Positions 7,242 to 17,932 of a stretch of 35,241 nucleotides of DNA are shown in pieces; position 1 is the first letter of the stretch; the number at the start of each line of letters is the position of its first letter. The translations under genes were made by a program, and so were the position numbers. The notes under the pieces are model-generated. The model was given only the letters and a program-made list of their open reading frames with translations. It did no database searches and was not told the DNA's origin. Origin of the DNA: Gryganskiella cystojenkinii (lineage: Eukaryota; Mortierellomycota; Mortierellomycetes; Mortierellales; Mortierellaceae); NCBI GenBank assembly GCA_015852425.1, contig JAAAIG010000305.1, forward strand, positions 4,846 to 40,086, given 5' to 3'.

Positions 7242-8651
7242 TTAGACCACAACTTCAACGGGCTTGGGAACCTTCTTGATCAGGGTCTCGGTCGCGTAGA
7301 AGGGCTTGGAAGAGTTCTTGATCTTCTCAGCTCGGGCTAGGTTCAAAAAGTCATCAAAGAGATACTCGGTATCCTGAGGGCCTCCCTTGGCTTCGGGGTG
7401 GAACTGGACCGAGGAGAAGGGTTTGGTCTTGTGACGGATACCCTCATTCGAGCCATCGTTCGCGTTCACGAAGTACTTCTCCCAGCCGTTGAGAACCTTT
7501 CCGGGAGCCAGAACAGAATCCTCGAGCGCATAGCCATGATTCTGGGAGGTGATGCTGCAACGTCCGTTCTGCATGTTGATCGCGGGCTGGTTGTGTCCTC
7601 GGTTACCAAACTGAAGCTTGTAGACGTCCAATCCAGCGGCCATGCCCATCAGCTGATTACCCATACAGATTCCAAAAATGGGTTTGGGGTTTGGGTTCTT
7701 GAAGGCCGTGGCCAGGTTCTCGACGGTGGTCATTGCGGCTCGTGGGTCACCGGGTCCATTCGAGATGAAGAGACCATCAAACTGATCCATGACTTTGTTG
7801 AAATCGTGATTCCAGGGGAGGACGGTTACGGCGGCGCCGCGAGCGACGAGACAACGCAGGATGTTCTCCTTGACGCCACAGTCGATCAACGCAATCTTGA
7901 CATCGCCCATGGGGTTCAACTCGTACACCTCCTTGGTACTGGCCTCAGAGACCAGATTACGGTCGTTGGGGTTAGGGAAATCAACGACTTCCTTGTTCTC
8001 CAGGACTTCTTGGCCGACCTCCAGCTTGGCAAGAGTCGACCCCTGATCACGAAGTAAATGAACGATCGCACGGGTGTCGACTCCGGAAATGGCGGGGATA
8101 CCCTCACGAGCGCACCACTCGCCCAAAGATTCGACAGCGGTCCAGTGAGAATACTTTGTCGCGTAGTCGTTGACGACGATTCCCTGACATTGAATCTTGT
8201 TAGACTCGAAATACTTGAGCAATCCGAATTGATCCTTTTCCTGAGAGGGGACTCCATAGTTTCCAATCAAAGGTTGGGTAAAGACCAAAATTTGACCACG
8301 GTAAGAGGGGTCCGTCATTGATTCGGGGTAACCGACTAGAGAGGTCGTGAAGACGGCCTCGCCAAAGGACGAGCTCTCGGCACCAAAGGACGTTCCGGTG
8401 AAGACATGTCCAGATTTGAGCTTCAAGGCTGCGGGCATAGCCTTAGGAGCTGATGTGTCGAACTGGTAAGGAGTCGAGTGCGCCACGGGCTTTGGAGCAG
8501 CCTTGTTTGCGGGGAAGACCGTGTCGGCGACAGTGGCCAGAGATCGCATAGGGACAGACGAACGCATGAGAGTGCGAGTCAAACTAGGACGGACCAGGGA
8601 CTTGACCGTGGCGACGCGAGACATGATAGCGGCTTGTTGAAGGAACGACAT
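7242..8651 (-). CDS. cpa1: Carbamoyl-phosphate synthase small subunit, arginine-specific, mitochondrial
   Basis: Single-exon 469-residue glutaminase subunit. It hydrolyses glutamine and passes ammonia to the large subunit for carbamoyl phosphate used in arginine synthesis. The first 45 residues are Arg/Ser/Ala-rich with few acids ([20 protein letters not shown]), a mitochondrial presequence. The CPSase_sm domain follows ([36 protein letters not shown]), then a class I glutamine amidotransferase domain with nucleophile Cys329 in GICMGNQ and His418/Glu420 in [11 protein letters not shown]. The ISGVDTRAI and ISNGPGDP motifs are intact. It is separate from the large subunit, as in arginine-type fungal enzymes and unlike the CAD/URA2 fusion. 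The start at 8651 has A at -3. Upstream lie an attenuator-peptide uORF and a Gcn4-type site, pointing to arginine feedback and general amino acid control. Confidence 0.97.
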
Positions 8652-9127
8652 GTTGTTTGTAAGTTGTAGTTTTTTTGTTGATGTTTTGCTTGAGGTGGAG
8701 ATCGGATATGTTTTTTTTGTGATCTTTTTTTAGATCGACGAACCGGAGATTTTTGATCGCGTTTTTTTGTGTGGGGTTGAAAGCGGTGACTGCTAAATGA
8801 GCTGGCTGATGGATAATATCTTTTTTTCGGTAAGGTTTCTTGAGATTACTTCGGACGGTTGTCGTGAAAGAACTGGAGGAGACAGACAGAAAAGCGGGAA
8901 AACTGTGAAAGAGAGGATAAAAGATTGAAAGGAATTGCAAGAGAAAATAGGAAAGAAAAAAAAAAGCGAGGTTGTGCTATGAATATAGAAGGCGAGTTGA
9001 TGAAAGTAAAAAAAAAGAGTGGAGATGAAAGTCGGGTGTGACGAAAGTGTTTAAGGGAAACTGGGCAAAGGAGGAGATGGGGAAGCGGGGGGTGGTGATA
9101 GGTAGGAGTGATTATTGTTTTGTTGCT

Positions 9128-9418
9128 TTAAAGGCCGTTTGGATTGGCGTTCTTCCAGACTATCGTTCGTTATCGGGTAGAGTAAGGTTGAGAGTCGAAA
9201 GAGAGTGCAGGGTTTGTGTGGAAGTGAGGCAGAAAGTGTGAGAGAACGACAAAATCGACTTAGCAAAGAGATCATTCAACATTGTTGACAAGACGCTTTC
9301 TCAAGAAAGAAAGAGATAGAAGGCATTGATGCACACACATAGAAAAGAGAAACAAGCATAGCATACCTTGATCAGAGATGTAATCGGCAGAGTTCTTTTC
9401 TTGCGAGTGGGAGTACAT
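9128..9418 (-). CDS. Arginine attenuator peptide (AAP) uORF, spliced
   Basis: Two exons on the - strand, 9418-9367 (ATG to CAAG) and 9159-9128 (to TAA), join to 28 codons including the stop. The peptide begins MYSHSQEKN and continues SADYISDQVWKNANPNGL. Yeast CPA1 and Neurospora arg-2 leader peptides share the cores CQDYISDHIW and SQDYLSDHLW. Here Asp12, Tyr13, Ser15, Asp16 and Trp19 occupy the same positions as in Neurospora. In those fungi the nascent peptide plus arginine stalls the terminating ribosome, blocks scanning to the main ORF and promotes mRNA decay. The uORF start has T at -3 (weak), allowing leaky scanning, and is the first AUG of the leader. The next AUG after its stop is the CPSase start, 476 nt on. 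Family assignment rests on motif, position and gene context; I have not aligned it computationally. Confidence 0.88.
9160..9366 (-). other. 207-nt intron inside the AAP uORF
   Basis: On the - strand a GTATGC donor (9366) follows CAAG, and the acceptor ATAG ends at 9160 after a CGATAACG branch-like stretch. Removing it restores the AAP core (DQ joined to VW). If it is retained, the frame runs from 9418 to a TGA at 9274-9272, giving 48 codons that lack the Trp and the conserved tail. Confidence 0.8.
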
Positions 9419-9690
9419 GGAAAGTTGTACTAGAGGCAGAAGAGAAGGAGTAGGGTGGTGCCTAGGGCAGCGAGGAACTATTCAGCTAGTAGGTGTGGTA
9501 CGGGGGAAGTGTGTTTAAGGACAAAAGATTGAAAAAGAAAGAGAAAGAGAAAAAGAGGCGAAACCGACGAAGAGAGGGTGCCTTTTATTTGGTTGAGAAG
9601 ATAGCAGGCGGTCGAGATATGGTTATCTGCTTATGTCTCGTTTTTTCGAACCCTTTCGTTTTTTTTTTGTTCAATGAGACTGACACCGCG

Positions 9691-9697
9691 TGACTCA
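9691..9697. promoter_or_regulatory. Gcn4/CPC1-type site TGACTCA
   Basis: A perfect palindromic TGACTCA lies about 270 bp upstream of the AAP start in the promoter of the CPSase small-subunit gene. In ascomycetes this is the target of the bZIP activator Gcn4/CPC1, which induces arginine genes under amino acid starvation. Function here is inferred from motif and gene identity. Confidence 0.6.
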
Positions 9698-16216: not shown

Positions 16217-17932
16217 GGGACCCTGGAGCGGATAAACGAGAGTGGAGTCTGGACCTGAATAATAGGGTTGGTCCTCGCCTGGCCCCCGCTCTTCTACATT
16301 TTTGAGTTAATAGTTGGAGGTGCATGCCTGTATTCAAAGGAAAGAAGGCGTATATGCCCCGTGTTCTTCCTCTCTATTTCTTCGATGAGCGAAGTATACA
16401 TCTACTGCACTCCATCTGTGGCATTCGGGCAGAGTTCTGTCCCGTAAGCCAAACACAGATGGCGTTTCTCTGGATCCAACGGTCTCATAATTGGTCTTCT
16501 CGTCTTGGAAAATATAGAATAAACTCCTGCGCAATAAAGAGACGAATTAACCTTGAATACCCTTCAGCCGCAAGAATCAAAGGGGGAAAAAAGAAAGGGC
16601 CTATCCCTATTCGATATCTCTTTCAATCAACAATCAATGGCTTATGGCGAAGCAAACAAAAAAAAAACAAAAGCAAAAAAATAATCTCGTACTTCACTCC
16701 GTTGGCCGCAGCCAATCCTTGCAAGAGCCCCAGGACGCCCCTGGACCAAACTCAAAGCCAAGTCAAGCCGTGATTCGGTCGTTGATTGCATCGGTTTCAT
16801 TGGCATTAAAAATTTTGCTTTCTTTTTTTTTTTTNNNNNNNNNNATCTCCTGTTCCTGTTCCCATCCCCTGTTCTCCCACCCTTATCTAGATCTACGCCG
16901 AAATAGAGGGTGGAAGACAGAACTCATGTACAATCAAACAAACTTTATATAAGAAGGTATTTTGGGCTCGATGTTGCGTACGGTCGATATTGTGTACGGT
17001 TGGTCGGCGGTGACGAACCTCTTTCAGCCTTCATTTCCCGTCTCTCTTGTTGCGCTATTTTCCGCTGCCCCTGATCTATATCCCACGTTAGTTGGCCTTA
17101 CCCCTCTCTCTTGATAATCCTCGTTTCCTATTCGCCATTTCTCTAGGTTTTGCGCCCACACGAGCATCAAAGAAAAAACAGCAAATGAGCTGGGAACTGC
17201 CTCTGGAATGGGACCCAAAAAAATTGGATTATAATATTTTTTGATCAAAGTCTTGACTGTCCTGTTCTCTTACGCCTAGCATGGAAGATGGGAACCGTAA
17301 CGCCAAGCATATGAAACCATACTTGAAAACGAAATCTCTTATACTTAACATTCATTAGGCCTGAACTTCGATCGCACTCATGCTGTTACGAAAGCAGCCT
17401 GTGTAGTTTAATCACGGAAAAACATTGAAGGGTCTCGCACTCCACTCTCTTTTCCTGCAGATGGATGTTTGTCACCGACAACAACAACAACAACAGCAGC
17501 AGCAGCGGAATGCCGTGTAAACCAGGAAGAGGGAATAGTGAAAACCAGTCCAGATAACTTGCGCCGGAATACGGGCAATGCGAGACAATCGCAGCGTCGT
17601 TCACCACCTATTCAGGGAGATGAAGAAAGAGAGATCATCAAAACTTGTTCCCCGCGTAAAAGAACGCCCTAACTTTTGCCGCTGTTGCGCCAAACCTATC
17701 GTCTCCGAAAGTATAAGAACCACCAGAACCGTCAAAACATCTTGAGGATTAAATGGAAAAGCCGCAAGGAGAGATATACAGTTTGATCAAAATATGTATT
17801 TGTCGGGTAGATGTGGAGAAGTTGAAGCGGGGGAAAATAAAAAACACGAGAGCCTTGGTAACCGTGATATGTGTGGGGGGTATCTATCTGATCCAAAGCG
17901 CGGGCATTTTTTTACGACCGTGATTCATTTTT
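16217..17932. other. 1.7 kb spacer with assembly gap, no convincing gene
   Basis: Left part is the distal promoter of the secreted-protein gene; right part is the 3' flank of the dehydrogenase. Translated frames are short and unconvincing. A (CAA)n(CAG)n tract lies at 17478-17507. A run of N at 16835-16844 means some sequence may be missing, so a gene interrupted by the gap cannot be excluded. Confidence 0.45.
16835..16844. other. Assembly gap (10 N)
   Basis: Ten N follow directly on a poly(T) run. Ten is probably a placeholder length for a scaffold join at a homopolymer the assembler could not cross, not a true size. Confidence 0.95.

Follow-up and report, generated by a model that had tools for sequence, protein, structure and literature searches.

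A predicted spliced arginine attenuator peptide in the CPA1 leader of a fungus of the Mortierellaceae

Arginine attenuator peptides, encoded by upstream open reading frames (uORFs), are a textbook example of small-molecule sensing by a nascent chain. In yeast and Neurospora, as described in the passages available from PMC11550727 and PMC7049704, ribosomes leak past the uORF when arginine is low. When arginine is high, it alters the nascent peptide in the tunnel and the ribosome stalls at the uORF stop, which blocks CPA1 and promotes nonsense-mediated decay (NMD). Asp12, Tyr13, residue 14 and Trp19 are critical for stalling in Neurospora according to the excerpt of PMC3130931, which does not list Ser15 or Asp16 and which prints residue 14 as Lys, where database entry P0121 has Leu. 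Premature termination arrest results, according to the available part of a 2026 report (PMC13183943), when the Neurospora stop is shifted closer to the N-terminus.

The members available for comparison belong to the Ascomycota (all seven database matches) and the Basidiomycota (PMC7049704, as excerpted). In the latter, the CPA1 gene of Cryptococcus has a conserved attenuator uORF with strong ribosome occupancy, and its mRNA is elevated five-fold without Upf1 (same passages of PMC7049704). Judged from this published description, Cryptococcus has the same arrangement of uORF and CPA1 as the locus reported here, but it belongs to the Dikarya. No report of an attenuator peptide in Mortierella was found in the open-access literature, and none was found there for Mucor or Rhizopus; the Rhizopus passage retrieved concerns tRNA synthetases.

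The window analysed here is the whole stretch of 35,241 nucleotides, and it contains ten unknown bases (N) at 16835-16844. Its minus strand carries CPA1 (7242-8651; start context AAC ATG), which encodes a carbamoyl-phosphate synthase (CPSase) small subunit of 469 aa with Pfam GATase and CPSase_sm_chain domains and is the sole copy found in the 35.0-Mb assembly. Ahead of it, on the same strand, lies a uORF that very probably encodes a fungal arginine attenuator peptide, likely with the same mode of action. Exon 1 (9367-9418, 52 nt) opens with the ATG at 9418 and encodes MYSHSQEKNSADYISDQ; it runs to CAA and the first base of the next codon, the G at 9367, after which GTATGC follows. A predicted GT-AG intron of 207 nt (9160-9366, minus strand; GTATGC...CGATAG) separates it from exon 2 (9128-9159, minus strand, 32 nt). 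After CGATAG, exon 2 reads TC TGG AAG AAC GCC AAT CCA AAC GGC CTT TAA, which completes Val18 and then encodes WKNANPNGL before the TAA stop. On translation of the minus strand, the joined exons encode a 27-residue peptide, MYSHSQEKNSADYISDQVWKNANPNGL, followed by the stop. The spacer between the uORF stop and the CPA1 start (8652-9127, minus strand) is 476 nt long and has no ATG.

An earlier note on this DNA had proposed the two-exon attenuator reading, and its coordinates, frame and junction (last base of exon 1 at 9367, first base of exon 2 at 9159) proved exact. The reading itself is upheld by the five core residues, the match to the Leader_CPA1 family and the presence of CPA1 downstream. 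The note was also right that the uORF precedes the correct gene, as the protein that starts past the spacer has both small-subunit domains.

To judge from the splice sites, the 207-nt intron is presumably removed from the uORF transcript. Nine [CT]AG acceptors occur in the leader; the predicted one is the first at a distance of 45 nt or more from the donor, and it alone yields Val-Trp. Donors of other genes, named by eye (coronin, CPA2, OTC and IDH), include GTAAGG, GTACTT, GTAAGC and GTAAGT as read by eye, with TAG acceptors, and GTATGC...ATAG is compatible with these. Without splicing, the uORF reads as 48 aa that lack Trp19.

The leader examined runs from 9620 to 8652 (969 nt, or 762 nt once spliced), its upper end having been chosen by us. 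Six of its seven ATGs fall within the predicted intron (hypergeometric 5e-4), so that the spliced leader has a single ATG, that of the uORF. Dinucleotide shuffles of the exonic leader gave a mean of 2.1 ATGs, with one or none in 34.6%, and mononucleotide shuffles a mean of 5.7, with one or none in 1.9%. ATGs are thus only modestly scarce outside the intron, which taken alone is not striking. Further upstream, a TATA-like AAATAAAAGG was picked out by eye (9581-9590, minus strand). A candidate site at 9691-9697 (no strand assigned) has the sequence TGA(C/G)TCA, the consensus for Gcn4/CPC1-type factors, and could bind such a factor. It would fit general amino-acid control, though weakly; the window has three sites of this kind where 6.9 are expected by chance, and so shows no enrichment.

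Given the predicted splice, the uORF peptide contains the core D-Y-[IL]-S-D-x-[ILV]-W. When 5.8 billion proteins were searched with a profile, a procedure that reaches only those sharing exact words with its three query rows (two of them the yeast and Neurospora peptides), seven attenuator-peptide members were recovered, from Neurospora, Saccharomyces, Trichoderma, Arxiozyma, Colletotrichum, Claviceps and Lachancea. All seven genera are ascomycetes. Across the alignment of the uORF peptide with these members, M1, D12, Y13, S15, D16 and W19 are invariant, whereas position 11 (Gln in all seven) and position 17 (His in all seven) differ here.

The arg-2 peptide of Neurospora crassa (P0121), like that described here, is encoded by a uORF ahead of the same gene. 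All six invariant residues stand at identical numbering in the two peptides, which confirms what had been claimed for Asp12, Tyr13, Ser15, Asp16 and Trp19. They differ in that Leu14, Gln11 and His17 of Neurospora are Ile14, Ala11 and Gln17 here, and in length, the Neurospora peptide having 24 residues, five of them after Trp, and the present one 27, eight of them after Trp. The CPA1 leader peptide of Saccharomyces cerevisiae (P0122), whose uORF likewise lies ahead of CPA1, has DYISD-x-x-WK in common with it; it differs in having 25 residues, a core shifted by one and only five residues after Trp. The cores that the earlier note had quoted for yeast and Neurospora match these two database entries. 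The longer tail that it had pointed out was borne out against all seven known peptides, each of which has five residues after Trp (one record, P0125, is named partial).

The spliced peptide matches the Pfam family Leader_CPA1 (PF08252) narrowly, at 19.1 bits against a cut-off of 18.5 (0.6 bits over; E 8.4e-4), where the yeast and Neurospora peptides score 58.8 and 56.0 bits in the same run. A D12N version falls to 14.0 bits, and neither the unspliced 48-aa frame nor either of two scrambled peptides is matched. A peptide at another locus in the assembly (C1030), judged to be a chance resemblance, scores 17.2 bits when cut out. With so narrow a margin and a presumed chance peptide at 17.2 bits, the score is weak evidence by itself, and much weight is carried by the position ahead of CPA1.

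The low Pfam score, the changes at positions 11 and 17 and the longer tail would also fit an ordinary translated uORF that lowers CPA1 output, with a diverged peptide that no longer senses arginine and a core that is an ancestral relic. This explanation is unlikely: all five core residues are kept, and across an intron, whereas in a relic their loss would be expected.

It is most improbable that some arbitrary frame of a long leader spells the core by chance. Dinucleotide shuffling of the 969-nt leader, repeated 117,446 times, never produced the core pattern GAYTAYNTNWSNGAYNNNNTNTGG, whether contiguous or across a GT-AG intron of 45 to 500 nt, and with or without an upstream ATG. The pattern of exon 1 plus donor has a single match across the 35.0-Mb assembly, the CPA1 leader itself, and reversed-pattern controls (contiguous, and exon 1 plus donor) gave none. 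The standing of D12 at its Neurospora number also argues against chance. What speaks for it is that the contiguous core pattern does occur elsewhere in the assembly, at two loci. One match (C466) is located in an open frame of 36 aa. The other (C1030, 954-1013, plus strand) is an uninterrupted HSDYISDEFWKKRKKEK-stop reading that resembles an attenuator core; by eye, it falls between the ends of two converging frames and is therefore taken as chance. A second attenuator in the genome was considered and rejected, as a PF08252 scan of the assembly gave just two further matches, C1030 and C661, both below the cut-off.

Exon 1 has an ATG start, a donor-like end and the strand of CPA1, as an alternative first exon extending the CPA1 protein would, with no separate uORF, but no AG at least 45 nt past the donor gives an in-frame, stop-free join, which refutes such an N-terminal extension for single-intron models and leaves it a very slim prospect overall.

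Searches further afield reached no CPA1 leader from another member of the Mortierellaceae. The 27-aa peptide had no match in a PDB sequence search, the 48-aa unspliced frame had none among predicted proteins, and a scan of IMG/VR gave no relatives. A prokaryote genome scan returned nine loci, all with bacterial or archaeal titles. Among the 21 loci scanned for the core motif, it was present in the CPA1 leader, C1030 and C466 only, and in none of the nine prokaryote loci.

The lineage was established from the CPA1 protein, whose best 18 of the 120 matches listed are 79 to 91% identical, the 19th being at 65%. The 13 organism-named entries among these best 18 are all Mortierellaceae (79 to 88% identical): Mortierella alpina, two other Mortierella, Entomortierella, Linnemannia (four entries), Lunasporangiospora, Gamsiella, Actinomortierella, Modicella and Dissophora. 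A tree built from the window protein together with 18 named matches, chosen among the 120 listed, places that protein with 11 Mortierellaceae rows in a clade of 12 (support 97/98); the genus is not resolved. The Mortierellaceae lie outside the Dikarya, and the guess, made from the letters, that the DNA comes from outside that group therefore holds. Most of the organism-named Mortierellaceae entries (P0001-P0016) carry the database name 'Multifunctional pyrimidine synthesis protein CAD'. They are 434 to 474 aa long with small-subunit domains alone listed, so this is apparently a misnaming.

If the uORF acts as an arginine attenuator, plentiful arginine would cause the nascent peptide to stall its own ribosome and so keep scanning ribosomes off CPA1. 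When arginine is scarce, ribosomes would pass over the uORF or complete it and go on to CPA1; when it is abundant, the ribosome would stall around codon 24 or on the stop codon. The stalled mRNA may then be subject to NMD, and its decay is possible, as the assembly encodes a UPF1 domain. The start context of the uORF, CAACTTTCC ATG, has T at -3, whereas the nine other starts compared (CPA1 and eight picked by eye) all have a purine there, A in eight and G in one. The uORF start is thus predicted to be weak, which fits the leaky scanning of the published scheme.

With a tail of eight residues after Trp19, the position that the last codon occupies in the known peptides falls here on Pro24, with Asn25 next, and arrest would probably occur on sense codons before the stop, or be spread over them. 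Should distance from Trp set the arrest, Pro24 would be in the P site with Asn25 incoming, and the arrest would be one of elongation on a sense codon. The attenuator domain can reportedly stall elongation inside longer proteins, a result attributed to Fang et al. in 2004. Since the unspliced transcript encodes a peptide without Trp19, the switch should need splicing. A fuller scheme can be put forward tentatively, with rather less than even confidence in the whole. In it, the ancestor shared by Mortierellomycota and Dikarya would already have had arginine-sensing arrest by the CPA1 leader peptide; in Mortierella this would be a natural arrest of elongation on Pro24-Asn25, with three codons of the peptide still to come; the sensing Trp would be supplied only by splicing; and intron retention would turn the sensor off.

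The pathway context has a bearing on this feedback. One CPSase large-subunit D3 domain (C1041) and one OTC-like gene (C592, named by eye) were found in the assembly. An exon-by-exon search of the assembly, in which some stretches are N, turned up neither a second CPSase small domain nor an aspartate carbamoyltransferase scoring above the cut-off. A pyrimidine CAD gene thus appears to be absent from the assembly or lost, but with a search made exon by exon and stretches of N, absence of the pyrimidine genes cannot be claimed. If the second CPSase or aspartate carbamoyltransferase were truly absent, the CPSase would supply pyrimidines as well, and a brake on it worked by arginine would be harder to explain.

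Taken at the level of its sequence, the uORF, with its extended tail and the intron predicted inside it, is a convincing member of the attenuator family, and its main value is its reach beyond the Dikarya. As a diverged sequence, it shows which positions are kept (D12, Y13, S15, D16 and W19) and which may vary (11, 17 and the tail). The longer tail is a naturally occurring means of asking whether the site of arrest follows from the distance to Trp or from the stop codon. A member in the Mortierellaceae would push the probable origin of the attenuator back before the Dikarya, and the arginine feedback brake is likely to be older than the split between Mortierella-family fungi and the lineages of yeast and Neurospora.
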